A DNA stretch of 64,000 bases from Chloroflexota bacterium. Its GTDB lineage: Bacteria; Chloroflexota; Chloroflexia; Chloroflexales; Herpetosiphonaceae. How positions within the stretch are numbered: the stretch's first letter is position 1; every line of letters begins with the position of its first letter. This document shows, one piece after another, positions 11,481 to 57,514 of this stretch. Position numbers and translations under genes: made by a program. A model generated the notes under the pieces. It saw nothing but the letters and a program-made list of their open reading frames with translations, was not told where the DNA came from and did not search any database. Where the stretch lies: assembly GCA_020161265.1 (NCBI GenBank), contig JAIUOC010000004.1, positions 124,001-188,000 of the forward strand. Reading direction: 5' to 3'.

Positions 11481-11514
11481 AGCGTTATTCGTTTTAGTGT
11501 GTAAGGAAAGATTT

Positions 11515-14500
11515 ATGCGTTCAATGCGAATGCTGCGTTTGCTGGCAGCATTAATTGTTGTGAGCATGCTTCCGTTAAGCCGGAGCAATGCCCAAACACC
11601 CACCACCAATTCGCCCATCAATCGCTTGCTCAGCCAAGGAGCCAATGTTGCTCGCCATAGCCAAACTGGCTATGTGCGCTGGATTGGCGCAGCCGCTGGC
11701 ACAACTCTCGATCAGCCAGTAGGCTTGAATCGCGCTGATACGCTCAACGTTGCCAATGCTTATTTAGCTGAATATGGCAATTTGTTTGGCTTAGCCCAAG
11801 CCAGCGATGCCACAGTTGCCAAAACCAGTACCACCCAAGATGGTCGCCAGGTTGTACGCTATCAACAGCGCTACCAAGGCGTGCCCGTCATTGCTGGCGA
11901 ATTGCAAGTTCAAGTCAATCAGGCTGGCGAATTACTGAGCATCAACGGCGAAGTGCTGCCAAATCTTAATCTCAGCACCAATGCCAAAATTAGCCAAGCC
12001 AACGCAATTAACACTGCCCAAAACCTCGTTGCCACCAAATATGATGTCAATGCGGCAGCGTTAAACGTGAGCAAAAGCGAATTAGCGATTTTTAACCCAG
12101 CTTTGTTGGGCGGCACAGGCCTGCAAAAGAGCAATCTGGTTTGGTTTGTGACGGTTGAATCAACCAGCAGCGACCCGATTCGCGAATATGTGTTTGTGAA
12201 TGCGCAGTCGGGCGACGTGAGTTTAAGCTTCAATCAAATTGGCTTTGCCAAAAACCGCTTCGTTTGTAACGATAACAACGTGGTTGATAACGACGATAAT
12301 CCCAACAACAACTGTGATCAACCAAGCGAATATGTGCGGATTGAAGGCTCAGCTGCTAGCAACGATGCCGATATTGATGCCGCTTACGATTATTCGGGCG
12401 ATACCTACGATTTCTTCAACTTGTTCTTTGGCCGTAACAGCATCGACAACAACGGCATGAACTTGATCTCACTGGTCAAACACTGCCCACCTGGCGCGGG
12501 CTGCCCTTATGGCAACGCCTTCTGGAATGGTCGCCAAATGACCTATGGTGAAGGGTTTGCTGCTGCCGACGACGTGGTTGCTCACGAATTGTCGCACGGG
12601 GTAACCGAATATACCTCGAACCTGTTCTACTACTTCCAATCAGGTGCAATCAACGAAGCCATGTCGGATATCTTCGGCGAATTTATGGACCAAACCAACG
12701 GTAGCGCCGATGATGACGAAACCACACGCTGGATTATGGGTGAGGATTTGGGTGGGATTCGCAATATGCAAGACCCAACCCAAGGCGATCAGCCTGACCG
12801 TATGTTGAGCGAATTGTATGTGCTCGATCCTAATCTGCTTGATAGCGGTGGGGTGCACAGCAACAGTGGTGTCGCCAATAAGGCCGCCTATCTTTTGACC
12901 GATGGCGATACCTTCAACGGCCAAACCATCGCTTCAATTGGCATCACCAAAACCGCCCATTTATTCTATGAAACCCAAATTAGCTCGTTGACTTCGGGCA
13001 GTGATTATGCTGACCTTGCTTCGGCTTTACGCCAAGCCTGTACTAGCCTGACAGGCAATCATGGAATTACCGCTGCTGATTGTGTTGAAGTCAATAAAAC
13101 CATTTTGGCAACCGAAATGGATCTTCAACCAACCAACGCACCAGCCCCTGACATGAAAGCTTGTAGCACTGGTCAAACTCAAGTTAATGCCTTCCAAGAC
13201 GATTTTGAGGCTTTGCCCAATAACAACTGGACAGCAAGTGCCTTGAGTGGTAGCACCGAAACTTGGACTACCAATCCAGCGCCACTCGTTGGGGCATATG
13301 CAACGAGCGGTGGTGGCTCAGCAACCAACTATAACGGTGTGTATGGGTGGAATCAAGCGATTGAAGAATCGGCCTTTACCCAAAATGCTAGCGTAACCGT
13401 GCCAACCAACGGCTTTGCCTACTTCCGCCATGCCTATGACTTCTATGCGCCAATCGACGCGGGCGTGGTTGAATATAGCACCAATAATGGTAGCAGCTGG
13501 CAATCAGCCGCTGGTTTGTTCAGTTTCAATGGCCCAACCAACATCGCTGAAGATGGCGCGTTTGGCGGTGAGCAAGCCTATGTTGGCAACAGCAACGGCT
13601 ATAACGCCAGCCGCTTGAACTTAGCCAGTTTGGCTGGGCAATCGATCCGCTTCCGATTCAAGGTGGCGCTTGGCGATACCCCAACGCCAAATCGCTCAGC
13701 CACTTGGTCAATCGACGATTTTGCGATTTACAGCTGTAATGGCCCAGCCACACCAACCGCGCCAAGTTTGTTCCTGACTAGCGACGTATTGGTGCAACAA
13801 GGCAAACAAAGCAGCGCGACCATCGGCACAGCCTCAGATGATCTAGATTTGGCGGGCGCGTTGACAGTCAGCACCGCTGGCGCACCAGCAGGCATGAACG
13901 TTAGCATCAGCAACCAAGCAGGGATCTTGAAGGCTAATGTTAATTGTGCTTGTAGCAGCGCAGTTGGCACCTACCCAATCACCGTAACCGTGCGCGACAG
14001 TGGCAACCTGACAGCCAGCCAAGTATTTAATATCGAGGTTGAGCCAGCGGGCCAAAGCATTGTCGATGGTGGTTTTGAGCGTGGCCTGAATTGGCAAGCC
14101 TTCTCAAACTCATTTAGCGATGTTTCACCACCATTGTGCTACACCTCAAGTTGTGCTGGTACGCCACGCACTGGCACAAGTTGGTTGCGTTTTGGCGCAC
14201 GCGCTGGCACAACCGAAACTGCCTTTGCCCAACAAACCCTCACCACAACCGCTGGCGATGCGACGCTTGAGTTCTACCTCTCGATTTATGCTCATAACGG
14301 CCGCGGAACTCAAGATTATGTCAAATTTAGCCTTGATGGCGAGGAAATTTTCCGAGCTAGCGATGCCAACACCGAATATAACAATGGCTATGCCAAAGTT
14401 ACGATTCCACTGACTGATCTGAGTGCAGGCGAACATGTCTTGCGGATTGATTCGGTCAGCGATTCGACCGCTAACATTGTACGCTTTAGCATTGATGACA

Positions 14501-14568
14501 TCAGCTTCATGGCTGAAAACAACCAATGCCGTGGCTCAAATATCTATCTGCCAATGATCACTAAATAG
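11515..14568 (+). CDS. Secreted M4 (thermolysin-like) metalloprotease with accessory domains
   Basis: A 1017-residue exported protease. A signal peptide covers about residues 1-27 (cleavage near SNA-Q). An FTP/PepSY-type propeptide follows (about 50-230). The catalytic domain holds HELSH at 357-361 and GAINEAMSDIF with the third zinc ligand Glu about 20 residues later. After the M4 C-terminal domain come a jelly-roll-like segment (about 560-740), an Ig-like segment (about 750-850) and another carbohydrate-binding-like module. The chain ends in NIYLPMITK, a tail echoed by the SGNH hydrolase in this window. It should digest extracellular protein. The ATG at 11515 follows AAGGAAAG; an in-frame GTG 18 bases earlier is less likely. 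Confidence 0.93.
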   Translation: MRSMRMLRLLAALIVVSMLPLSRSNAQTPTTNSPINRLLSQGANVARHSQTGYVRWIGAAAGTTLDQPVGLNRADTLNVANAYLAEYGNLFGLAQASDATVAKTSTTQDGRQVVRYQQRYQGVPVIAGELQVQVNQAGELLSINGEVLPNLNLSTNAKISQANAINTAQNLVATKYDVNAAALNVSKSELAIFNPALLGGTGLQKSNLVWFVTVESTSSDPIREYVFVNAQSGDVSLSFNQIGFAKNRFVCNDNNVVDNDDNPNNNCDQPSEYVRIEGSAASNDADIDAAYDYSGDTYDFFNLFFGRNSIDNNGMNLISLVKHCPPGAGCPYGNAFWNGRQMTYGEGFAAADDVVAHELSHGVTEYTSNLFYYFQSGAINEAMSDIFGEFMDQTNGSADDDETTRWIMGEDLGGIRNMQDPTQGDQPDRMLSELYVLDPNLLDSGGVHSNSGVANKAAYLLTDGDTFNGQTIASIGITKTAHLFYETQISSLTSGSDYADLASALRQACTSLTGNHGITAADCVEVNKTILATEMDLQPTNAPAPDMKACSTGQTQVNAFQDDFEALPNNNWTASALSGSTETWTTNPAPLVGAYATSGGGSATNYNGVYGWNQAIEESAFTQNASVTVPTNGFAYFRHAYDFYAPIDAGVVEYSTNNGSSWQSAAGLFSFNGPTNIAEDGAFGGEQAYVGNSNGYNASRLNLASLAGQSIRFRFKVALGDTPTPNRSATWSIDDFAIYSCNGPATPTAPSLFLTSDVLVQQGKQSSATIGTASDDLDLAGALTVSTAGAPAGMNVSISNQAGILKANVNCACSSAVGTYPITVTVRDSGNLTASQVFNIEVEPAGQSIVDGGFERGLNWQAFSNSFSDVSPPLCYTSSCAGTPRTGTSWLRFGARAGTTETAFAQQTLTTTAGDATLEFYLSIYAHNGRGTQDYVKFSLDGEEIFRASDANTEYNNGYAKVTIPLTDLSAGEHVLRIDSVSDSTANIVRFSIDDISFMAENNQCRGSNIYLPMITK

Positions 14569-14583
14569 CAACTTGATTATTTG

Positions 14584-14620
14584 CCCTACCTTGGTATCTG
14601 CCAAGGTGGGGTATTTATTT
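14584..14620 (+). terminator. Terminator of the M4 protease gene
   Basis: An 11-base stem CCCTACCTTGG/CCAAGGTGGGG (one G-T pair), a 6-base loop and a T-rich tail (TATTTATTTTA). It starts 16 bases after the stop. Confidence 0.8.
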
Positions 14621-14632
14621 TAGGCGTAACCT

Positions 14633-15421
14633 TCACGAGCCAGTACTGCCATAGTGTTTGAGGCCAAATACCCAAAAGCGATAGGCAATGGTGATACTCA
14701 CGAGCGCTATCAGCGGAGCCAGCCATGCCATCCAACCAACTGAGTGACCCAGCAAATAGCTAGCCGGATAATACGAGGCAAAGCCATATGGTAGCAACCA
14801 TGTCAACAAAATGCCGACCGAGCGATGATAAAATGTCAGTGGGTATTGAGCAAATTCATTGGTGCTGAATACTAAATTGGTCACCGGAATTGAATCCATA
14901 ATCCAAAAAGCAGTTGCCGCAGTGAGTAAATTCAGCGCAATAAAAATAATGCCACCACTGATGACCATTAATATGATAAACCCAATGCTTGCCAGGGTAA
15001 TTGGTAATTGTAGTTTAACCATTGCATACCCAACCAAGCCAAAGCCAACAATAAAATCACCAATCGCATCATGACAAATCCGATCGGCTAATAAATGGAA
15101 TAATGGATTAATTGGCCGCACCAAAAAACGATCAAATTGGCCAGGTCGAATATAATCGCGCCCAATCACCCAGAGATTATCGGCAAAGAGATGATTGATG
15201 CCTTTGGATAAGGTCAATAAGCCATAAATTAATAGAATTTGCTCAAGTGTCCAGCCTTGGATACTTGGAACTTGGCGCAAAACTGACCACATTGCAATAA
15301 TGCTCGCACCTTGAAATAACACGGTTGAAATCGAACCAATAAAAAAATTCAGCCGATATTCCATCAAAATTTTGAAACGCTGAACGACGAAATACCAATA
15401 GAGTTTGCTATAACGCAGCAT
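14633..15421 (-). CDS. ABC-2 type exporter permease (second subunit)
   Basis: A 262-residue membrane protein with about six helices, of the ABC2_membrane_6 type. It carries the family's conserved cytoplasmic stretch DYIRPGQFDRFLVRPINPLF. The ATG at 15421 (MLRYSKLYWYF) is chosen because it starts 3 bases after the stop of the upstream permease; the frame remains open upstream only as read-through of that gene's DNA. It forms an exporter with the neighbouring permease and ATPase; the cargo is unknown. Confidence 0.88.
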   Translation of the reverse strand: MLRYSKLYWYFVVQRFKILMEYRLNFFIGSISTVLFQGASIIAMWSVLRQVPSIQGWTLEQILLIYGLLTLSKGINHLFADNLWVIGRDYIRPGQFDRFLVRPINPLFHLLADRICHDAIGDFIVGFGLVGYAMVKLQLPITLASIGFIILMVISGGIIFIALNLLTAATAFWIMDSIPVTNLVFSTNEFAQYPLTFYHRSVGILLTWLLPYGFASYYPASYLLGHSVGWMAWLAPLIALVSITIAYRFWVFGLKHYGSTGS

Positions 15422-15423
15422 TA

Positions 15424-16236
15424 TTAGCCACCTTGTACCGTGATTTTGCGCACACTGAATTGAAACATCAAGCGGGAAAGCATTAACATCACTGCTAACC
15501 ATGCCAATTGTTGCAACCAAATTGCTCCAAGCTGATCCAATGGCGTGATTCCGCTCAATAACGATACCGGGATCGAAACACTTTGGGCAAAGGGCATCCA
15601 TTGGGCAATGGTTTGTAAGGCTGAAGGCAGCATGGTTAATGGCAGAAGTACGCCACTAAACAGCATTAGAATTGAGCCACGAACCACTTGTAAACCCCAA
15701 ACTTCGGTTGAATAAAAAGCGATGCACCCAAAAATCCAATCGAAGCAGAATAAAATACTACAGCCAAGTAATAATGAAATTAGAAAGCTTAGCCAAATTA
15801 ATGGATCAGTTGGTAAGCGAATATCAAATACTAAAACTGCAAAGCTTCCGGTGACTAAAAGTTGTTGTGCTAAGGCAACAAACGTTCTTGTTAGATGGCC
15901 AATAAAAATTCGCTCTTGAAAATCTACAGGCCGTAATAATTCGCTAGAAATAGTACCTTCGCGAATCCAATAGCCAAATTCTTGAGTATAGCCCCATTGC
16001 ACCAATGGCGCAACCATACGAGCCAAGATGATATAGGTCAAGGTTTGTTGCATGGTTAAGCCTGCAATTGTTTCACGTTCGCTATACAGGGCTTTCCAAA
16101 ACGAAACATAGACAATTGTGAGGAAGAGATGTGCGCCAAGTTGCGACCAAAACCATAAATTATAGGCGAGCATTTCTTTAATATTCATGCCAACCACACT
16201 GCGATAGGTACGCAAACGATAAGCAAGTTTATTCAT
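15424..16236 (-). CDS. ABC-2 type exporter permease (first subunit)
   Basis: A 270-residue membrane protein with about six helices. It shares with its downstream neighbour the pattern WIREGTISSELLRPVDF after the second helix pair, typical of paired ABC2_membrane_6 subunits. Its start overlaps the end of the ATPase gene by 8 bases, and its stop is 2 bases from the next start. The three genes form one tight operon read ATPase, permease, permease. Confidence 0.88.
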   Translation of the reverse strand: MNKLAYRLRTYRSVVGMNIKEMLAYNLWFWSQLGAHLFLTIVYVSFWKALYSERETIAGLTMQQTLTYIILARMVAPLVQWGYTQEFGYWIREGTISSELLRPVDFQERIFIGHLTRTFVALAQQLLVTGSFAVLVFDIRLPTDPLIWLSFLISLLLGCSILFCFDWIFGCIAFYSTEVWGLQVVRGSILMLFSGVLLPLTMLPSALQTIAQWMPFAQSVSIPVSLLSGITPLDQLGAIWLQQLAWLAVMLMLSRLMFQFSVRKITVQGG

Positions 16237-17239
16237 TAACTGCTACCTCGTTATAGGCCGTGGGGTTTTGATACAAATGTTTGATGATGCTCTCAAGATC
16301 AGGCTCATTCAAGGTAAAATCGGCCACATCAATCTGTTGCATCAAGGCGGTGGCTACTTGACTGGCACTTAATTGGCTTCGATCAAACTTCAATTCAAGG
16401 CTATATTCGCTTAAACTCAGTTGCTCGCAGGCTGGTGGCAATTGCACATTGCTAATTGGTTGATTGGTCTCAAATTTAATTGTGCGATATTTGCCAAATT
16501 GCTGTTTGATCGCATGCAACGGCCCATCGTAGACTTTGCTACCAGCATCAATGATGATCACCCGTGAACAAAGCTGTTCGATATCACCTAAATCGTGGGT
16601 GGTAAGCATCACCGTCGTATTATGGGTTTGGTTATAGTCTTTAATAAATTCGCGAATCCGTTGTTTGACCATGACATCAAGCCCGATGGTTGGCTCATCA
16701 AGATACACAATTTTGGGTTCGTGAATGAAGGCTGCTGCTAGTTCGGCTCGCATTTTCTGGCCTAACGACATCGAGCGAATCGGCGTTTTTAAAATTTCGT
16801 CAAGCTCTAATACTTCGCTGAAATGGCTGAGCAATTGCTTATAACGGCTTGGCTCAACTTCATAAATATTGGCGACCAAATTGAGCGATTCGATCAGCGC
16901 TAAATCCCACCATAACTGGCTACGCTGACCAAACACAACCCCAATATTGCGCGCATTGGCCACCCGCTCACGCTGTGGATCGTGACCCAACACTGTAACA
17001 GCGCCAGTCGTAGGGTAGAGAATTCCGGTCAACATTTTGATTGTGGTCGATTTACCAGCGCCATTGACTCCAATATAGCCGACAATTTCGCCAGCATCGA
17101 TCTGGAAATTTAAATCGTGAACTGCAACTTTTTCGCGATATTGAGGCCGAAAGAGCGCCTTGATTGCCCCTTTGACTCCGCCTTCTTTTTCAATTGTGCG
17201 GTAGGTTTTGCCCAAATTACGAACATCAATAACTGACAC
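16229..17239 (-). CDS. ABC exporter ATP-binding subunit
   Basis: A 336-residue ATPase. Walker A is GVNGAGKST, the signature is SMSLGQKMRAELA, and Walker B is KIVYLDEPTIGLD, followed by the His switch in LTTHDLGDIEQL. The C-terminal extension of about 90 residues is like those of DrrA/NatA-type exporters. The frame is open far upstream, but I choose the GTG at 17237-17239: it has GAGGAG about 7 bases before it and starts at the family-typical VIDVRNLGKTYR. It energises the two permeases that follow. Confidence 0.9.
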   Translation of the reverse strand: MSVIDVRNLGKTYRTIEKEGGVKGAIKALFRPQYREKVAVHDLNFQIDAGEIVGYIGVNGAGKSTTIKMLTGILYPTTGAVTVLGHDPQRERVANARNIGVVFGQRSQLWWDLALIESLNLVANIYEVEPSRYKQLLSHFSEVLELDEILKTPIRSMSLGQKMRAELAAAFIHEPKIVYLDEPTIGLDVMVKQRIREFIKDYNQTHNTTVMLTTHDLGDIEQLCSRVIIIDAGSKVYDGPLHAIKQQFGKYRTIKFETNQPISNVQLPPACEQLSLSEYSLELKFDRSQLSASQVATALMQQIDVADFTLNEPDLESIIKHLYQNPTAYNEVAVNE

Positions 17240-17408
17240 CGTGGTCTCCTCGTTGGCATGGATGTGAGTATTGGCATAGTTTAAGTCGCTTGGCCCCAAA
17301 GCTAGCCCATCGCATGACTGAGTTGCTATCAGCCCAAAGCCTGATTGGGTGCACACAACTTGCATTGGCGAGATCCAAGGATTGTGAACTGAAGGAAGGA
17401 GCATGATC

Positions 17409-18191
17409 ATGGATTTAAGCAATACCGTCGCGTTAATCACTGGCGCTGGCTCAGGGATTGGTAAAGCCGCCGCCTTGCATTTGGCAGCGCGTGGGGCAAA
17501 AGTCGCTGCGCTTGGCCGCACCGAGGATGAACTTAGCCAAACCGTCGATACAATTAAACGAGCTGGTGGCGAGGCTTTGGCCTTGATTGCCGATATTACT
17601 CAGCCCGACGAAATGCAACAAGCAGTCGATCAAACACTTAAGACATGGGGTAAGCTTACTTGTGTCTTTGCCAATGCTGGCATCAACGGGGTTTGGGCAC
17701 CAATTGAGCAATTGACGCTCAAAGAATGGCAAAATACATTAAACATCAATTTAACTGGGACGTTTTTGACCTTGCAAAAAACTGTACCAGCCCTCAAAAA
17801 ACAGGGTGGCGCGATTATCATTACCTCGTCGATCAATGGCACTCGTACTTTTAGCAATGTAGGCGCAACCGCCTATTCAACCACCAAGGCGGGCCAAGTA
17901 GCGATGGCCAAAATGCTGGCCTTGGAGTTGGGCCAATTTAACATTCGAGTCAATGTCATTTGCCCCGGGGCGATAGAAACCAGTATCGAAGAAAGTACCG
18001 AAAAACGGGCAATTGAAACGGTGGCCGTGCCCGCCGAATTTCCTGAGGGCGATATTCCATTAACCCACGGGCAACCAGGCACAGCCGAACAAGTCGCCCA
18101 GTTGGTTGGTTTTTTGGCTTCCGAGGCAGCCAGCCATATCACAGGCACCGAAATTTGGATCGATGGTGGCCAATCGTTATTGCGCGGCTAA
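17409..18191 (+). CDS. SDR-family oxidoreductase
   Basis: A classical short-chain dehydrogenase of 260 residues. The cofactor site is TGAGSGIG near residues 12-18, followed by NAGING. The catalytic set is Ser (TSSIN, about 140), Tyr156 and Lys160 (AYSTTKAG). The C-terminus ends in the usual SHITGTEIWIDGGQSL. It is an NAD(P)-dependent oxidoreductase of unknown substrate. Two ATGs lie 6 bases apart; the second, at 17409, has AAGGAG at 7 bases, while the first would leave almost no spacing. It is divergent from the ABC exporter operon, with about 170 bases between. Confidence 0.9.
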   Translation: MDLSNTVALITGAGSGIGKAAALHLAARGAKVAALGRTEDELSQTVDTIKRAGGEALALIADITQPDEMQQAVDQTLKTWGKLTCVFANAGINGVWAPIEQLTLKEWQNTLNINLTGTFLTLQKTVPALKKQGGAIIITSSINGTRTFSNVGATAYSTTKAGQVAMAKMLALELGQFNIRVNVICPGAIETSIEESTEKRAIETVAVPAEFPEGDIPLTHGQPGTAEQVAQLVGFLASEAASHITGTEIWIDGGQSLLRG

Positions 18192-18202
18192 ATGTCAAAA
18201 GG

Positions 18203-18228
18203 GCACGCTAGCAGAAATACTAGCGTGC
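18203..18228. terminator. Hairpin between convergent SDR and Nudix genes
   Basis: GCACGCTAG (18203-18211) pairs with CTAGCGTGC (18220-18228) around an 8-base loop. It lies between two stop codons and could end transcription from both sides, though it has no strong T-run. Confidence 0.6.
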
Positions 18229-18236
18229 TACCGATA

Positions 18237-18719
18237 TCAGATCGCTTGCAGCAGATATTGTTCGCTATTATCCTCGTTGGAGCGAAACGCCCAAACCCGC
18301 CCTGCTTCGACATTGCCTGCTAAATAATCAAGCAATGGCAGGCGAGTGCTAGGCCAGCGCAGCGATTGCACCATCTTGGGAATATCGTGCAGATCAAACC
18401 AAGCACACTCTTCGATCTCATTATCAGGATCGTTGATGGCGATTTCGCCTTCGGTTGTACCTTCAAAGGCACAAAAAACCACAGTTTGCTCTTTGCCGAC
18501 CAAATAGACTTGCGACATATAGGCCAAGGTGCTGGCAGCGGCAACCAAGCCCGTTTCCTCACGCACCTCACGCGCAAAGGCTTCGAGCCAATGTTCGCCA
18601 ACCTCAACTTTGCCGCCAGGAATGCCCCAATAACTACCATTTTGGCCTTGTTGGCGCACCAATAACACCTGATTTTCACGCCGCAGGAGCGCTAAAACAA
18701 TATGTACAATCGATTCCAT
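18237..18719 (-). CDS. Nudix hydrolase
   Basis: A 160-residue Nudix protein. The Nudix box GGKVEVGEHWLEAFAREVRE continues into ETGL and matches G-x5-E-x7-REUxEExGU, which binds Mg2+ and cleaves nucleoside-diphosphate-X substrates. The substrate is unknown. The ATG at 18719 (MESIVHIV) is preferred over upstream in-frame codons because GGAGG lies about 5 bases before it. It follows the ABC permease gene by 14 bases and may be cotranscribed with it. Confidence 0.9.
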   Translation of the reverse strand: MESIVHIVLALLRRENQVLLVRQQGQNGSYWGIPGGKVEVGEHWLEAFAREVREETGLVAAASTLAYMSQVYLVGKEQTVVFCAFEGTTEGEIAINDPDNEIEECAWFDLHDIPKMVQSLRWPSTRLPLLDYLAGNVEAGRVWAFRSNEDNSEQYLLQAI

Positions 18720-18733
18720 AATGCCTCCGTGGG

Positions 18734-19969
18734 CTAGCGCAACGCCTGCCATAACCCGCGTACCGAAAATTTACTGCCGCGTAACAAAATGGTGGCACGA
18801 AATAAACGGGCAGTTAAACTGAGGGTTGCCACGACGGCTAACGCTAGCAAACCAATACTTAATCCTATTTGCCAAGGTGGGACAACCGTCATCACTGAAC
18901 GGAGCATCATCGTTGATGGGGCGGTAAAGGGAATCACGCTCAGGGTTAGGGCTAAAGCGCCATTGGGTTTGCTCAGCAACGAGGTAATAAACATCAACGG
19001 AATCATTGCTGGCACACTCACCAAAATAATTAATTGCGATAATTCGCGCATTGATGGACTAATTGCTCCGATGCCCGCAGTTAAGCTGGCATAAAAAAGG
19101 TAGCCCAATAGAAAAAAGATTCCCAAAAGCAGCCATGTCGTTGGCTCAATTTGCACTTGATTGAGTGCATTGCGAATGGCTTGGCCGCGCAAAACCCCAA
19201 GCGCGAGGATTGCCCAAAAGCCCAATTGAATAAAGGCCACAATCCCTAAACCAAGCATTTTGCCGGTCAGCAATTGGCGTGGTGAGATCGAGGTAAGCAA
19301 TACTTCGAGCGTGCGATTTTCTTTCTCCTCTAAAATTCCCTGCATCAACAAGCTTGCACCCATAAAAATGGAGATATAGATTGCCATGGCAAAGCCAATT
19401 GGCACCATTGAGCCGGCAAAATTTTGACTCAAATTGCCAGCGACTCGTACATTTTGGCCAATTGCCTCAGCTTTGCTCAGGCTAATTGGTTCAAATAATA
19501 GTGGTACAAAATCGATATGCGGTGAGCGCAACTGATTCACCGCCAACAAGGTGCGCAAGGCATTCGTATCAGCCTGATCGAAAATGCTAGCTGTTCGAGT
19601 GGTGCGGGTCACAATCCCCGATTGCTGATAATCGGCAGGAATGATGAACAACGTTTCAATCGTTGCTTGGCGCAAAGCCTGCTCAGCGACGGTTTGATTA
19701 TCAAATTGCAGCACGGTTGTTGGCGAAATAACCTCAAAATGCTGTTTGAGCACTGCTGCCTGGTCAACCACACCGATGCTATGATCGCGAGTAGTGCTTG
19801 GAATAAACAGATTGGCAGTGGTTTGGCCCGACGGATCGCCGCCAAACACTTGGGCAAAAAGATAAATCGCACCAATCAGCAAGGGCACGCCCAAGGTTGA
19901 CCAATAAAAATCTTTTTTGCGCAGATGATAGAGCAGATCGCGCCGCGCAACAAACCAAATTTTAGCCAC
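18734..19969 (-). CDS. ABC-2 permease of NatB type, without a linked ATPase
   Basis: A 411-residue membrane protein. One N-terminal helix is followed by a large extracytoplasmic domain (about 55-180), then five or more helices in the C-terminal half. GASLLMQGILEEKENRTLEVLLTS is shortened here to EEKENRTLEVLL, the conserved motif of NatB/YhaP-type exporters. The likely start is GTG at 19969 with GGAGG 7 bases upstream; it overlaps the upstream gene by 8 bases. No ATP-binding gene is adjacent, so its ATPase must be encoded elsewhere. Confidence 0.85.
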   Translation of the reverse strand: MAKIWFVARRDLLYHLRKKDFYWSTLGVPLLIGAIYLFAQVFGGDPSGQTTANLFIPSTTRDHSIGVVDQAAVLKQHFEVISPTTVLQFDNQTVAEQALRQATIETLFIIPADYQQSGIVTRTTRTASIFDQADTNALRTLLAVNQLRSPHIDFVPLLFEPISLSKAEAIGQNVRVAGNLSQNFAGSMVPIGFAMAIYISIFMGASLLMQGILEEKENRTLEVLLTSISPRQLLTGKMLGLGIVAFIQLGFWAILALGVLRGQAIRNALNQVQIEPTTWLLLGIFFLLGYLFYASLTAGIGAISPSMRELSQLIILVSVPAMIPLMFITSLLSKPNGALALTLSVIPFTAPSTMMLRSVMTVVPPWQIGLSIGLLALAVVATLSLTARLFRATILLRGSKFSVRGLWQALR

Positions 19970-20510
19970 GCCCCGCCTCCGTTCGCTCAAGATAATCGCC
20001 ATGAATGAGAAAAGAACTTGACTGAGGAAAGCGCCAAACGCCCAAAACTTTCCAAAGGTCGTTGGTCGTCAGCCCAAGGTTGACCGCACCCCACAAGGCT
20101 AGGTAGGCCGACAGCGGCTCGATTAGAAACCCAAGCAATAACAAGCCATTCAATGCTAAGGGTGCTAATAAATAGCCAATAACCTGGCGACGAGGAAGCG
20201 CTTGGCTGGGCCGTACTCGCGGATAGATCAAACGGCGCTGAAGTTGCCATGGTTGCTTTTGCAGCATCAGCCCTAGCACATGGCTTACCGTATGGCTTAC
20301 TGGCGCGATAATCAGCACAATAATTGCATCAATAATTACCCAAGCCTGAACCCCTTCAAAATCAAGTTGCTGAGCACTCGCATGTAAGCTATATCGAATC
20401 CGCATCAATACGACCAAGCTAAAAAAACCAACTAACCCACCGATCAAAAATGGTAACCGCCCGGTTAATCCTTCAACAATGCGGGATTGAGGTTGCGCTT
20501 CGTTTGACAT
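19962..20510 (-). CDS. Small membrane protein, DUF3267-like, degenerate zincin motif
   Basis: A 182-residue protein with about four helices. A helix containing PVSHTVSHVLGLML sits where DUF3267 putative zinc peptidases have HExxH; here the sequence is HTVSH, lacking the catalytic Glu. The later NDLWKVL and the short C-terminal soluble tail also resemble that family, but the match is by eye only. It overlaps the ABC-2 permease gene by 8 bases, suggesting a shared role. The ATG at 20510 follows GAGG. Confidence 0.55.
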   Translation of the reverse strand: MSNEAQPQSRIVEGLTGRLPFLIGGLVGFFSLVVLMRIRYSLHASAQQLDFEGVQAWVIIDAIIVLIIAPVSHTVSHVLGLMLQKQPWQLQRRLIYPRVRPSQALPRRQVIGYLLAPLALNGLLLLGFLIEPLSAYLALWGAVNLGLTTNDLWKVLGVWRFPQSSSFLIHGDYLERTEAGRG

Positions 20511-20616
20511 GCTGATCCTCATCTGGCAACGACGTTGCGAACAAACTACCACGCTGCGTCGTTTTAATGAATGCTAGCTTATTATAATCAGTTCCTTGCA
20601 AAATTGGCAGGCAACC

Positions 20617-20650
20617 AAAAGCGCCGTTAATAACTAATAACGACGCTTTG
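20617..20650 (-). terminator. Weak terminator after the 225-residue membrane protein
   Basis: AAAAGCGCCGTTA and TAACGACGCTTT form a stem with one internal mismatch around an AT-rich loop. On the minus strand it ends in CTTTTGG. It lies 16 bases after the stop at 20666. Confidence 0.5.
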
Positions 20651-20665
20651 GGCAGAATGGGTGAT

Positions 20666-21343
20666 TTAAGCTAAACGTTGGAGTTTGGCTTGGGCTAAAA
20701 TAGTTTGCACAGTTCGCCCAAAATAGCTGAGCCAAAAGACGATTCCAACAAATTTGAGGCTATCTTCGGTAAAGGTAGCTAGCTCATGAAACGGCATAAT
20801 GACATCGAAAATCATCGATAAGGCCATAAAACCAACCGCCAGCATAAACAATCCATAATCTGTGCTTAACATTCGTGGCAAAAAATAAAAAAGATAGGCC
20901 ATCCCCAAGCCTAAATAGCCCGCCAACACCAGATTTTCGGGAATATGCAGATGCTTCGGAAAAACCCGTTCGTGTAGCAAAATGGCATCGTCAAGCGCCA
21001 AAAGCAAGGATAAGAGGGCTGATGCTCCTAAAAAGCGTCGCTGTTGATGGCTGGGTTCAAGCAACAACCAGCCAACCCCGCAAACACCGGTTGTTGCCGA
21101 CCACAACATTACACCCAAGGTCGAAAGAATACCAAAATAGAACGGCATGCCCGTAATATCGGCAGGATCACGGGTGAGCGTGCTCAGTGGAATATGATCG
21201 AGTTGGCTAAAACTATACAGTATCAGCAACAAACAAACTACAAACAGGCCGATCCAAAAGATCATGCGGCGGGTTAATGAATGATGCTTCAGTGCATCGC
21301 TATGCAGTTGTTGGCTGCCAAATGCAAAAAATCGTGGCTTCAT
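20666..21343 (-). CDS. Polytopic membrane protein with two D-x5-HE motifs
   Basis: A 225-residue protein with about six membrane helices. Acidic and His residues fall at helix ends in two similar motifs, LDDAILLHE and FDVIMPFHE, each D-x5-H-E, followed by EDSLKF before the last helix. Buried Asp/His/Glu clusters of this kind bind metal in membrane hydrolases such as the ceramidase-like superfamily, but I cannot name a family. The ATG at 21343 (MKPRFFAF) is chosen from GAAAGGG 7 bases upstream; the frame is open further but without a ribosome site. Confidence 0.65.
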   Translation of the reverse strand: MKPRFFAFGSQQLHSDALKHHSLTRRMIFWIGLFVVCLLLILYSFSQLDHIPLSTLTRDPADITGMPFYFGILSTLGVMLWSATTGVCGVGWLLLEPSHQQRRFLGASALLSLLLALDDAILLHERVFPKHLHIPENLVLAGYLGLGMAYLFYFLPRMLSTDYGLFMLAVGFMALSMIFDVIMPFHELATFTEDSLKFVGIVFWLSYFGRTVQTILAQAKLQRLA

Positions 21344-21493
21344 TTGGAAACCCTTTCTTGAGGCAAGTTGCTTTTGGCGAAATCTACGACTGAGTATACG
21401 CAATCGCTTAGGAGCTGCCAAGGGTGAATTAATCGACCACGAACCAATTGAAGGTATTGCAAATTGAGGACTATTGGTACAATTTAGCGCCAA

Positions 21494-21533
21494 CAAGCCT
21501 TGCTGCAAGGTGCAACCCTCACAGCAAGGCTTG
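21494..21533 (-). terminator. Inverted repeat after the 60-residue membrane protein
   Basis: A perfect 12-base repeat, CAAGCCTTGCTG (21494-21505) and CAGCAAGGCTTG (21522-21533), with a 16-base loop, 2 bases after the stop. The stem is strong, but the T-run is absent. Confidence 0.55.
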
Positions 21534-21534
21534 G

Positions 21535-21717
21535 TTAATGTTTTGGCCAGAGCAATGCGCCCAGCGCGGCAAATGCTGCCACAACGCTAACCAATTGGGC
21601 TACATCGCGCCCAAGCACGACCAAAACGGTCACAGTGATACACATTATGACCATTGTTAGCATAAACATCAGCCGCAATGGCCGATTCTGCTGTTGTTGA
21701 TCAGGTTGTTGACTCAT
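21535..21717 (-). CDS. Small two-helix membrane protein
   Basis: A 60-residue protein. A Gln-rich N-terminus (MSQQPDQQQQNRP) is followed by two hydrophobic helices, about 15-36 and 40-56, ending in LLWPKH. The ATG at 21717 has an ideal AAGGAGGT 7 bases upstream. No family is recognised. It is probably monocistronic. Confidence 0.7.
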   Translation of the reverse strand: MSQQPDQQQQNRPLRLMFMLTMVIMCITVTVLVVLGRDVAQLVSVVAAFAALGALLWPKH

Positions 21718-21845
21718 TCGCAATACCTCCTTCATCCAGAACTCGCATTTGATATAGAACACAAGTTCTGTTTAACTATAGCGGATATTGCGGCTAGCTG
21801 TCAATCAACGACATTAAATAGTTTTAATTCTCTCATTTTAGCCAC

Positions 21846-22643
21846 TTATTGAGCTGGCTGATCCCACACGCGACTGGCATTTTTGCGTAATTTGGCTCTC
21901 ACTGCTTCAACCAAATTAACATTGGTAGTATCAGCTAATTGCACCAAATAGAGCAATACATCGGCCAACTCGCCCTGCCATTCAGCTTGATCGACAATTT
22001 CCTCACGCCATTGCAGGTGCTCAAGCACTTCAGCCGCTTCAAGCGTCAGCGAAATCGCTAAGTTGCGGGGAGTTTGCGGACGCTTTGAATTGGCCTCGTA
22101 CCAACCCTTGGAGCGCACAAAACTATGCATCTCTTGGGTTAATGCGGCCACACTGGCATCGGCGGGCTGCTGAAGTTGGGCTAAAACTAAAGCATCATGG
22201 TTGAAAGCCAGTGGTGGCAGTTGATCGAGCGCGAAAAATTGAGCCAAATCAGCATCGCCGCCCGCTTGCAAATTGCCACCACTGACCGTTGCCCGCAGCC
22301 AAACTCCCAATGGATAAGGCGGCTCGCGATCAAGATTGGAATGAACAGCAATAACTTCGCCAATCTCGGCTTGCAAGCCAGTTTCTTCCAGCACCTCGCG
22401 AGCTAAGCCTTGGCGCATTTCTTCATCGTGCTCAAGGTAGCCACAGGGCAAACACCATAAACCTAGGCGAAACGAGCCAGCTCGCCGCACTAACAATACC
22501 TCACCAAAATCATTTTGAATGACGGCGGCCACGCCAGCTGGGGCACTGGTAAAATGCACCCAACCACATTCAGGGCAGGTCAAGCGTTCGCGACCACCAC
22601 GAAAACGGAGTTCCAAACGTTGCCGACAGTGTAAACAATACAT
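21846..22643 (-). CDS. Zinc ribbon - Nudix - MazG-like pyrophosphohydrolase fusion
   Basis: A 265-residue protein with three modules. The N-terminal zinc ribbon has CLHC and CPEC (residues 3-26). A Nudix domain follows with box GYLEHDEEMRQGLAREVLEE and ETGL (about residues 70-90). The C-terminal part (about 165-262) has LEAAEVLEHLQW and GELADVLLYLVQLAD, the paired ExxE/ExxD metal motif of all-alpha NTP pyrophosphatases such as RS21-C6/MazG-like enzymes. Both catalytic modules hydrolyse nucleotide pyrophosphates, so the fusion probably cleans the nucleotide pool. An intact motif set in both halves argues that both are active. Confidence 0.88.
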   Translation of the reverse strand: MYCLHCRQRLELRFRGGRERLTCPECGWVHFTSAPAGVAAVIQNDFGEVLLVRRAGSFRLGLWCLPCGYLEHDEEMRQGLAREVLEETGLQAEIGEVIAVHSNLDREPPYPLGVWLRATVSGGNLQAGGDADLAQFFALDQLPPLAFNHDALVLAQLQQPADASVAALTQEMHSFVRSKGWYEANSKRPQTPRNLAISLTLEAAEVLEHLQWREEIVDQAEWQGELADVLLYLVQLADTTNVNLVEAVRAKLRKNASRVWDQPAQ

Positions 22644-22728
22644 TCAATGCGCTCCTACATTCAATTGCGCTGCTATCAGCCCATACAATACCAGACGATC
22701 GCAGCGCTGTTGAATATAGGGCTATGTG

Positions 22729-23793
22729 CTAGTTTTTGTGGATAGAGGGCAAGAATACCGTTTGGCGTTGGATAAAGCGGGTTGGTTCGTTCATACCATT
22801 AATATCGACCGCACGATAGGCCAAGCGTGCCGAAAAAGGAACAGTTAATGGGCTGGTATAGCGTTTCCAGTTGCCATTATTTAAACGATATTCGATGCCC
22901 GCCACCCCAACGTTGTCGCTAGCACTCAGGGTCACTTGATAGCCCGTGTTGCTAATAACGCTGCTCAGGGTTGTGACTGGGGCAACAGTATCAGTGAAAT
23001 GGAAGGTGTATTGAAAGGTTTGCAGCGATAAACGTTCTTGCCCAATCACTGAGGGATGGTAATAATCAAGGGTTGAGGCACTGCTTGGCTCAACTGGAGT
23101 TGTGGTCAAAAAGCCACCTTCATAACGACAATGAATATATTGGGCGCAAATTTCGGCTAATTGAAGGTTATAATCCAACGCTCGTTGTTGCACCCGTTGC
23201 CGCCGCGCCACATCTGCTGGCTCCATCGAGGTTGGGTTCGCCAGCATCACAGCACAACGATCATCACGACCCCAAGCAGTTTGGGCATTCGGATCGTTAT
23301 GCAAGGCTTCCCATAAACCCAATACATTTGGATTACTGGCGACAAAAATTCGCGCATCAGGCAAGCGGGCACTCAAGGCCGCCATTCCAGCTGCAAACTG
23401 CAAGCGATAATTGAGCACTGGAGTCATCTGCGCTTCGGTTGGGCCACATAGATCATTGCCGCCCATTAGAATCGTCACATAATCGACGGTTGGCGAAAGT
23501 GTTTCAACTTGGCTGAGCAAATCGCGCATGCGTGTGCCTGAAACCGCAGCATTCGTAGCAGGCATGGTGGGGTTGAACTGACGCAACAAGGTAGCATGGC
23601 TATTAATTCGCCCGCCAGTGCTCCACGAATACACCGGATGATCACTATGAATATCGGCATTAGCAGCACGCGTAATCGAATCGCCGAGCGCAGCCATATG
23701 CTGAGGATAGCTTGCAGGTAGCTCGGATTGGGCTTGCGAAACTTGAGGCAGCAATAAACCGAATCCGAATAATACAACTAGCAAAAATCGCAT
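22729..23793 (-). CDS. Secreted SGNH-type esterase/lipase
   Basis: A 354-residue exported hydrolase. The signal peptide covers about 1-22 (cleavage after SQA). Block I is ALGDSIT with nucleophile Ser39, block III is MGGNDLCG with Asn113, and the catalytic Asp/His pair is in LDYYHPSVIGQ. An Ig-like or Big-type domain (about 275-345) with SDNVGVAGIEYRLNNG follows. The chain ends in TVFLPSIHKN, similar to the end of the M4 protease. The substrate is an ester or acetylated sugar, undetermined. GGAGG precedes the ATG at 23793. Confidence 0.9.
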   Translation of the reverse strand: MRFLLVVLFGFGLLLPQVSQAQSELPASYPQHMAALGDSITRAANADIHSDHPVYSWSTGGRINSHATLLRQFNPTMPATNAAVSGTRMRDLLSQVETLSPTVDYVTILMGGNDLCGPTEAQMTPVLNYRLQFAAGMAALSARLPDARIFVASNPNVLGLWEALHNDPNAQTAWGRDDRCAVMLANPTSMEPADVARRQRVQQRALDYNLQLAEICAQYIHCRYEGGFLTTTPVEPSSASTLDYYHPSVIGQERLSLQTFQYTFHFTDTVAPVTTLSSVISNTGYQVTLSASDNVGVAGIEYRLNNGNWKRYTSPLTVPFSARLAYRAVDINGMNEPTRFIQRQTVFLPSIHKN

Positions 23794-23938
23794 CAATCGA
23801 CCTCCAAAAAATAACTGATTCCTACCAACCTTGGCTCAAATAACTAGCTAAATTGGTAGATCTGCTTGCAGAGGCCTTAATATAAAAGTGATTGATGAAA
23901 AAGTTGTGAAGAGCTTAAGACCTAGGGCTACAGCCCGA

Positions 23939-55089: not shown

Positions 55090-57273
55090 TTATTGGGGAT
55101 TTGCAACGTGTAGCGGTAAATACACCGTGAACAGACTGCCTTGGCCAACTTGGCTGCTCACTTCGATGCTGCCGCCATGCAGATCGACAATTTCTTTGAC
55201 CACAAATAGGCCAATGCCTAGCCCTGCCACATGGCTCCGCGCAGCATTGCTGGCGCGATAAAAACGGGTAAAGAGGTTGGGGATCGATTCTGGAGGAATG
55301 CCAATGCCATGATCGCGAATCTGGACGATTGCTTGTTGGGCATTGCGATCGGCACTCACCAGCACTTCAGTTTGTTCGGGGCTATATTTCATAGCATTGT
55401 TGATCAAATTGACAAATACTTGCTCCAAGCGAATTGGGTCGCCCGCCACGTGGATGGGCTGGCTGCTCGTGCAGTGGTAACGAATCTGGTGATGATCGAT
55501 CGTGGTGGCTAAATCATTGACCAATTGTTGCAAAAGCTGAGCCAAATCGATTTGATCACGCTGAATATCGAGCTGGCCTGTTTCGATGCGTGAAACATCG
55601 AGCAAGGCGGTAACCATTTTATTCATGCGGCTGGCCTGAGTTTCAATTGCTTGCAGCGAACGCTGAAGTCGCTCATCGACCAAATTTAGTCGTTCTAAGC
55701 GGCGCAAACTCAATTGCGATTGACCAAGCAAGGTGGTTAATGGGTTTTTCAACTCGTGCGAGGCAATCGATAAAAAGACATCACGTAAACGCACAGCATT
55801 TTGAGTTTGACGATAGAGATAGGCCTGCTCAATCGCCAAGACCATGCGCTGGCTTAGCTCCTCGGCCAATTCAACATCAATTTGGTCAAATAGATGTTGA
55901 TCGTGTAAAAAGACCATCGCCCCACTGAGCTGATGTTGATCGCGAAAAGGAATGATAATTGCCGATTGATATGGCTCAGGCAAGGCTTGATCGACAATTT
56001 GGGCTTGGCCGTTAGCTAGCGCGGCGGCAAAAGCTGGGTGTTGCTGCCAGTTGAGCAATGGTTCATGGGCGCTGCTATAGCTGCTCAACGGCTCTTCAGC
56101 GGCATCAAGCAGCAAATACAAACCGCAGGCAACGCTAAAACTCGGCGTTGGCACAGCAGTGCTGGTTTCTAGCACTTGAGCTAAATCAATCGTTGCTGCC
56201 AATTGATTATGTAATGTTCGTAGTAAACGTTGGCCAAACTCATCGCGATAGCGTTCGCTTACATCACGAAAAACCATCACCGCGCCGATCACCTGCTGTT
56301 CGCGGTCGTAAATTGGTGCGGCGCTATCCTCGATTGCCACATAGCCATTGCCTTGGCGCATCACCACCGAATTGCTCAAGGTGACGATTTGACGCTGGGC
56401 GAGAGCGGTATTGACCGGATGGGCTAGCTCATGTTTGGTTATTGGATCAAAAATTGCTGCCACTTTATGAATTGATTGACCAAGTGCCTGTTGTTCAGGC
56501 CAGCCGGTAATCGTCGTGGCGATATGGTTCATAAAGCTAATTTTGCCATCGATATCGGTGGTCAGCACCGCATCGCCGATACTAGCGAGGGTAACCGCAA
56601 ACCATTCGCGCTGGTTGCGCAGCTCGTTAGCAGCCAACTCACGGCGACGCACATCGCGCTCGGTTAAGGCCATTGTGCCAATTACGAAGCCCGTCGCAAC
56701 CAAAGTAGCAAAGGCCAACGCAAGGCCTGCTCGCTGCACATTGAGTTTGGTTTGAGCCGCCCGTTCGAGCGCACGAATATTTTCGCGATCGAGCAATTGA
56801 TCGATAATTTGACGAATACGATCCATGTGCTGCTTGCCCTGATTTTCCAGCACAATCGCTTGGGCGGCTTCAAAGCCTTGGCTGCGCCGCAAATCGATCG
56901 TCGTGCTCAGCTCTTGTTGCTGCTCAGCGATCAAGGTTTTTAGCTCAGGTAGGCGTTCGATAAACAATGGGCGTTGGCTGCTGTAGGCTTCAATTTCAGC
57001 AAGCAGGCTAGGGAGTTCGGTTTGGGCGGTTTGGTAGGGCGCTAAATATTGTTCGCTGCCAGTGATGATAAACCCACGTTGGCCGGTTTCAGCGTCTTTC
57101 AACAATGATAACAGCCGATCCAAACGATTGGTCATGGTTTCCGATTCGATCACACTAGCATTATTAGCTTGAATGGTTTGGAGATATTGCCACGAAAGGA
57201 GGCCATTGACGATAATGACAAGTGCTGCTAGCATGAACCAACGATTTAATTTATGCGCAATTAATGATTTCAT
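55090..57273 (-). CDS. Sensor histidine kinase with CHASE3, PAS and GAF-like domains
   Basis: A 727-residue membrane kinase. A helix near residues 9-28 and another near 180-200 enclose a CHASE3 domain with LLSLLKDAETGQRGFIITG. A PAS domain follows (about 225-340, with SIGDAVLTTDIDGKISFMN), then a GAF-like domain (about 360-480). HisKA carries SIASHELKNPLTTLLGQ with the phospho-His. The HATPase has NLINNAMKYSP, RDHGIGIPPE and GLGIGLFVVKEI. There is no receiver domain and no adjacent response regulator, so its partner is encoded elsewhere. The start at 57273 is favoured over a TTG six codons upstream. Confidence 0.92.
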   Translation of the reverse strand: MKSLIAHKLNRWFMLAALVIIVNGLLSWQYLQTIQANNASVIESETMTNRLDRLLSLLKDAETGQRGFIITGSEQYLAPYQTAQTELPSLLAEIEAYSSQRPLFIERLPELKTLIAEQQQELSTTIDLRRSQGFEAAQAIVLENQGKQHMDRIRQIIDQLLDRENIRALERAAQTKLNVQRAGLALAFATLVATGFVIGTMALTERDVRRRELAANELRNQREWFAVTLASIGDAVLTTDIDGKISFMNHIATTITGWPEQQALGQSIHKVAAIFDPITKHELAHPVNTALAQRQIVTLSNSVVMRQGNGYVAIEDSAAPIYDREQQVIGAVMVFRDVSERYRDEFGQRLLRTLHNQLAATIDLAQVLETSTAVPTPSFSVACGLYLLLDAAEEPLSSYSSAHEPLLNWQQHPAFAAALANGQAQIVDQALPEPYQSAIIIPFRDQHQLSGAMVFLHDQHLFDQIDVELAEELSQRMVLAIEQAYLYRQTQNAVRLRDVFLSIASHELKNPLTTLLGQSQLSLRRLERLNLVDERLQRSLQAIETQASRMNKMVTALLDVSRIETGQLDIQRDQIDLAQLLQQLVNDLATTIDHHQIRYHCTSSQPIHVAGDPIRLEQVFVNLINNAMKYSPEQTEVLVSADRNAQQAIVQIRDHGIGIPPESIPNLFTRFYRASNAARSHVAGLGIGLFVVKEIVDLHGGSIEVSSQVGQGSLFTVYLPLHVANPQ

Positions 57274-57514
57274 CGTAGCCCATCGCAACACAATCTAACC
57301 CCAAAGTTCAATATGCCAGCAGTTCTACCGAATCATTGCCTAGCAAGCTTTGATGGCTGTCGTAACGTTATGACAACCAATGGCAATCAAATTGAGTGTT
57401 CGGTGTACGCGAATTGTAGCATATTCATGCCACATCATTGCCACTCATTACCAACATCCACTCATTACTGATCTGCGTAGCTTTGGCTATGGCAATCACA
57501 GGAAGGAGCATTGA

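Follow-up and report, generated by a model that had tools for sequence, protein, structure and literature searches.

Our analysis showed that two secreted enzymes encoded in a 64,000-nucleotide stretch of a Chloroflexota genome (contig JAIUOC010000004.1, hereafter the window; host genome 6.04 Mb in 13 contigs) end in variants of one short tail, the YLP-box, and that this tail is a real C-terminal tag, probably read outside the membrane for docking or sorting by a putative factor other than a sortase. An earlier note on this DNA had pointed out the endings NIYLPMITK, on the M4 metalloprotease P0001, and TVFLPSIHKN, on the SGNH/GDSL hydrolase P0002, as a feature shared by two unrelated enzymes with signal peptides, and both are confirmed in the sequence; the 'terminal Lys' that it described is exact for P0001 alone, a single Asn trailing the Lys in P0002. 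Apart from the tail the two proteins have nothing in common, their domains being unrelated: P0001 matches Peptidase_M4 (E 9e-23) and M4_C (E 4e-32), with weak immunoglobulin (Ig)-like matches, and P0002 matches Lipase_GDSL_2 (E 2e-14), with Big_7 and OmpL47 matches, both below cut-off, in its C-terminal domain. The YLP-box reads roughly [VI][YF]LP[hydrophobic][VI]x[KR], 4-6 residues from the end, and lies on the outside C-termini of exported proteins. We propose that the protein would leave the cell via Sec with its disordered tail staying free, and that a putative envelope factor would bind the free tail and retain or place the protein at the surface.

The link of the tail to export, and its limitation to one phylum, were seen on a large scale. 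We searched 301 genomes with a 27-base degenerate DNA pattern ending at the stop codon, with the reversed pattern as control. The 31 genomes of the host's order gave 278 pattern matches versus 16 for the control, and the seven genomes of family f44 gave 27 versus 4; families f11 (14 versus 11 in 17 genomes), f13 (7 versus 6 in 11) and f22 (48 versus 54 in 26) were at background level. The tail is also present in family f39. Forty stretches picked by the DNA pattern alone contained 45 matches, of which 39 end an open reading frame with a signal peptide and one a lipoprotein, four having no signal peptide that we could find and one being too short. The exported share is 40/45 for open reading frames with the tail versus 163/480 for genes without it in the same stretches, a matched baseline (p=4e-13). 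A narrower pattern (GC-rich codons, Arg and TGA), searched in this codon version only across 84,980 species genomes, gave 24 matches, 24/24 of them in Chloroflexota (less obvious names were lineage-checked); all 24 end an open frame, with a signal peptide in 10 of the 14 whose 5' end lies inside the locus. The tail is thus characteristic of Chloroflexota, where it is present in part of the phylum.

Within the host genome, the enrichment on exported proteins was assessed in a sample of 1.264 Mb (1.2 Mb of genome plus the window; 904 genes), with genes and signal peptides called by our own crude script and not by Prodigal or SignalP. The expression proposed in the earlier note, [YF]LPx(2-4)[KR] at the C-terminus, matched 7/137 signal-peptide proteins versus 2/767 others (p=4.4e-5), a pooled enrichment that arises because the first sample carries the signal (6/82 versus 2/504; window 1/5 versus 0/42). 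One of the two matches lacking a signal peptide is a sensor-kinase-like protein ending in NVYLPQHK, a look-alike judged by eye, and the other an N-in membrane protein whose outside C-terminus is FLPSVGK. Host tails are often loose (YAPWVTN, MIPYVVN, YIPWVSNNN, FMPFVTLNQ), so that a strict expression of any kind undercounts them. A wider expression, designed after inspection of the first sample, matched 14/137 signal-peptide proteins versus 1/767 others in the pooled sample and 2/50 versus 0/221 in the held-out 400 kb (p=0.03). With the wider expression, unbiased samples of 200 kb each from two further genomes, G224 and G160, gave 3/22 versus 0/118 and 0/15 versus 1/149, respectively; in G224 the expression of the earlier note gave 0/22 versus 0/118. 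Four permuted motifs had no match in any sample set, and the control [YF]LPx2-4[DE] matched one signal-peptide protein in the first sample and two proteins lacking a signal peptide in G160. Internal copies of the motif were not enriched, with four in 633 called genes, one of which is the near-terminal variant AFLPIAIRSAE. Chance or composition, which could be invoked on the grounds that sensor-kinase-like proteins (by eye) may end in VYLP in both the host sample and the window, is an extremely improbable account of the tail in view of the permuted, reversed-pattern and matched-baseline controls and of the confinement of the narrower-pattern matches to the phylum. The example in the window (55090-57294, minus strand; sensor-kinase-like by eye) ends in GSLFTVYLPLHVANPQ, and such look-alikes mean that naive tail counts can be inflated.

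The tail is independent of the domain that precedes it. The 89 tails collected fall into 67 groups when compared over the 148 residues preceding the last 12, and exactly four residues follow the Pro in 60/67 group representatives, a regularity biased by the retrieval pattern. The codon after the Pro nevertheless has a single second base in all 45 matches although the pattern permitted C or T. The tail is conserved between flanking codons, and ahead of downstream DNA, that are free to vary, which argues that selection acts on the protein. Pfam searches on 48 carriers returned 84 families, the commonest, subtilase, being found in five carriers. No membrane helix accompanies the tail as a rule: a membrane-like stretch near the end (17-residue window of mean hydropathy >=1.6 in the last 45 residues) was seen in only 2/53 carriers. 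Since beta domains stand at the end of many carriers, the tail might simply be the final strand of the preceding domain; this we consider very unlikely, given the 67 unrelated preceding contexts, the Thr-Pro linkers that precede some tails, and the AlphaFold2 monomer model of P0002 (14-sequence alignment), in which the tail (residues 346-355) is predicted to be disordered (predicted local distance difference test, pLDDT, <50) and lies outside the Ig-like domain.

M4 orthologues (22 matches in 19/82 genomes) keep the tail in 6/6 genomes of the genus and in 3/3 copies in the sister genus G062, and in family f3 it is absent from all eight readable ends. Six of these end in RCC1-like repeats (by eye) followed by other sequence, or in a similar extension, and the other two in another extension; of the remaining matches, four ran off a contig or locus edge and one was unreadable. 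Among SGNH orthologues (18 matches in 17 genomes), those with the Ig-like domain bear the tail behind a variable linker in 8/8 cases, and the other 10 end at the catalytic domain. The two patterns together indicate that the tail goes with the C-terminal architecture and not with the catalytic domain. Elsewhere, in G224 (contig C1, ~822-830 kb, L098), tandem near-identical RCC1-repeat proteins all keep the tail, the first being truncated to a short frame. Coordinates in the window are collected in Table 1.

Table 1. The two tail-bearing enzymes of the window and their parts.
Feature	Position	Strand	Remark
P0001, thermolysin-type (M4) metalloprotease; FTP propeptide, Ig-like parts, tail at end	11497..14568	+	
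P0001 probable signal peptide	11497..11592	+	cleavage site by eye and crude predictor; start codon possibly a few codons downstream
P0001 YLP-box tail NIYLPMITK, stop codon immediately after	14539..14565	+	NF053834 profile match
P0002, SGNH/GDSL hydrolase with C-terminal Ig-like domain, tail at end	22729..23796	-	
P0002 probable signal peptide	23731..23796	-	cleavage site by eye
P0002 YLP-box-like tail TVFLPSIHKN	22732..22761	-	predicted disordered

The tail had been thought in the earlier note not to be described, and this proved wrong: it is already known as a putative sorting motif in NCBIfam, release 20 of which holds two models labelled "YLP-box putative sorting motif", the 11-position NF050076 sort_motif_YLP and the 10-position NF053834 ultrashort_CTERM, and an adjacent 'sortase_YLP'. 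No functional study of the YLP-box was found in the literature searched, where search results were partly judged by title. The catalogued motif and ours share the same core and the same C-terminal place, and NF053834 scores the P0001 tail at 13.7 bits in the last 59 residues and at 14.6 bits in a genome search (window 14542-14565), over its cut-off of 10, although the whole protein is not reported because of the HMMER filters. The models differ from what we observe in that P0002, whole or as its last 60 residues, is not reported by either at E<=10 (subject to the same filters), nor is its tail among the matches listed in the genome searches, and in that many host tails are looser, such as FMPFVTLNQ and YIPWVSNNN; at E<=1, NF050076 matched 9/48 carriers and NF053834 10/48. 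On genomes, NF050076 exceeds its cut-off in 20/21 relatives and 2/14 control genomes, and NF053834 in 26/32 and 11/14; the latter is unspecific on genomes, so that its match counts are informative and its mere presence is not. Six genomes sampled from the host's order had 13-43 matches to it (host 13, G210 40, G245 43) and most tail-poor genomes 0-4, yet G150 and G018 have eight and seven, respectively, with no pattern match (versus two and five for the control). What we add to the catalogue entry is the lack of a helix before the tail, the membrane-held carriers, the mismatch of sortase_YLP with the tail and a tail-bearing genome, G160, with no sortase detected.

A sortase is one candidate reader of the tail, whose Leu-Pro core resembles that of LPXTG. 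A sortase of the PF04203 class, or sortase_YLP (NF053836, a 'putative sortase' with weak PF04203 similarity whose accession adjoins, and which NCBIfam sets beside, the YLP models), would cut inside LPxV and attach the product to the wall, and the basic end would be what remains of the usual charged tail. PF04203 sortases occur in 65/80 sampled genomes, including 18/18 of the host's order, tail-rich and tail-poor alike, and one sortase_YLP protein, in G096, itself bears a YLP-like stretch behind its signal peptide. We nevertheless judge this explanation unlikely. It is at odds with the lack of a membrane helix in 51/53 carriers and with the sortases possessed by the tail-less families f5 and f11. 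Moreover, G160, a draft genome 97% complete with eight pattern matches versus one for the control, has neither PF04203 nor NF053836 detected, and G191 of the same genus, with only two tails, has no PF04203 and is not among the sortase_YLP matches. Sortase_YLP itself is found in 11/301 genomes, eight of them in f11 (a family at background level for the tail), two in f44 and one in f77, and in 0/31 of the host's order; it cannot be a general partner, unless relatives beyond the model's reach do the work. We therefore rejected the sortases as partner, and since the candidate of NCBIfam is mismatched with the distribution of the tail, the partner is to be sought elsewhere. In our view the reader is more likely to be a factor for docking, a receptor or a so far unrecognised transferase than a sortase.

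The YLP-box resembles LPXTG sortase substrates in its Leu-Pro core, its basic end and its occurrence on exported proteins, but has no Thr-Gly and not the order of motif, membrane helix and basic tail; nor does every genome with the tag possess a cognate sortase, as G160 shows. PEP-CTERM/exosortase, GlyGly-CTERM/rhombosortase and MYXO-CTERM/myxosortase are described as clade-wide C-terminal tags on dozens of unrelated exported proteins (PMC11980579). The YLP-box is like them in being a phylum- or clade-wide C-terminal tag on many unrelated exported proteins, whereas these signals are tripartite (motif, transmembrane helix and basic cluster) and the YLP tail lacks the helix, which sets it apart from the rhombosortase and myxosortase systems too. 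The exosortase PF09721 was rejected as a partner, being present in 1/36 genomes searched (G009 only), and the PDIAV lipoprotein model NF053835 was rejected as a marker, exceeding its cut-off in just 4/80 genomes. The co-occurring processing enzyme that the earlier note had suggested looking for was found neither among the sortases, sortase_YLP and exosortase nor among linked genes: the families that recur around carriers in the 40 stretches were further carriers or of a general kind, transporters for example.

The tail is also borne by proteins already held at the membrane. Five near-full-length NF053835 'PDIAV' lipoproteins, all with a lipobox-like N-terminus by eye, have clear tails in three cases (TFLPIAQR, TFLPITQR, VYLPLVRK) and degenerate ones in two (NSLPLILK, SFAPVLLR); the one from the host (L206, C7:226893-228290; 101.8 bits, cut-off 90) ends in TFLPIAQR. 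The N-in membrane protein ending in FLPSVGK (C3, L031:9622-11037, plus strand) consists of a LuxR-type helix-turn-helix, one membrane helix near 145-166 and a Kelch propeller, and so joins a transcription-factor-like domain to an outside sensor-like propeller. The tail is therefore not simply a replacement for a membrane anchor, but a mark of C-termini on the outside, whatever holds the N-terminus. A stability or quality-control tag, whose Pro and basic end would shield C-termini from proteases or be read by a periplasm-like protease with no sorting involved, would suit all carriers, including the membrane-held ones, and make a dedicated enzyme unnecessary. This is quite unlikely, since it would leave unexplained the conserved aromatic-Leu-Pro order, the limitation to one phylum and the fact that, within one genome, many exported proteins lack the tail.

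Several points weigh against the tail being a docking or sorting tag. The lipoprotein-family members, three of the five with a clear tail, and the N-in membrane protein need no anchor, and although the enrichment and the phylum limit bear out the proposal of a shared signal on exported proteins of Chloroflexota, the surface anchoring suggested with it finds no support in these carriers. The enrichment check of the earlier note succeeded in the pooled sample and returned 0/50 versus 0/221 in the held-out 400 kb, uninformative on its own, and 0/15 versus 0/149 in the unbiased 200-kb sample of G160. Outside the host genome, the consensus carries a bias from the retrieval pattern, and no partner was found, nor any shared neighbour gene beyond carriers and general families.

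Carried by dozens of proteins in a genome, the tag offers a handle on how exported Chloroflexota proteins reach or stay on the right layer. The envelopes of filamentous Chloroflexota are described as layered and of unclear composition, with no accepted outer membrane (PMC13319060; PMC7332563), and in tomograms of Roseiflexus an S-layer was absent, as apparently was an outer membrane (PMC7332563). Roseiflexus carries the tag (narrower-pattern match, L119), so that neither layer can be its general target. We tentatively propose that the YLP-box might be the first ultra-short tag to serve in sorting with no membrane helix, read by an outside non-sortase factor of the multilayered envelope that would act in the same way on proteins with a cleaved signal peptide, on lipoproteins and on N-in membrane proteins.

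Sortase_YLP may serve f44 members, for example G096 with its two copies. One of them (L216:1387-2052, plus strand) bears, directly behind the signal peptide, the YLP-like stretch FQVFLPLLTN, which may be a pseudo-substrate built into the protein; no such stretch was seen in six other full sortase_YLP sequences. On contig C27 of the same genome (L215), a sortase_YLP gene and a canonical sortase gene lie side by side and point in opposite directions.

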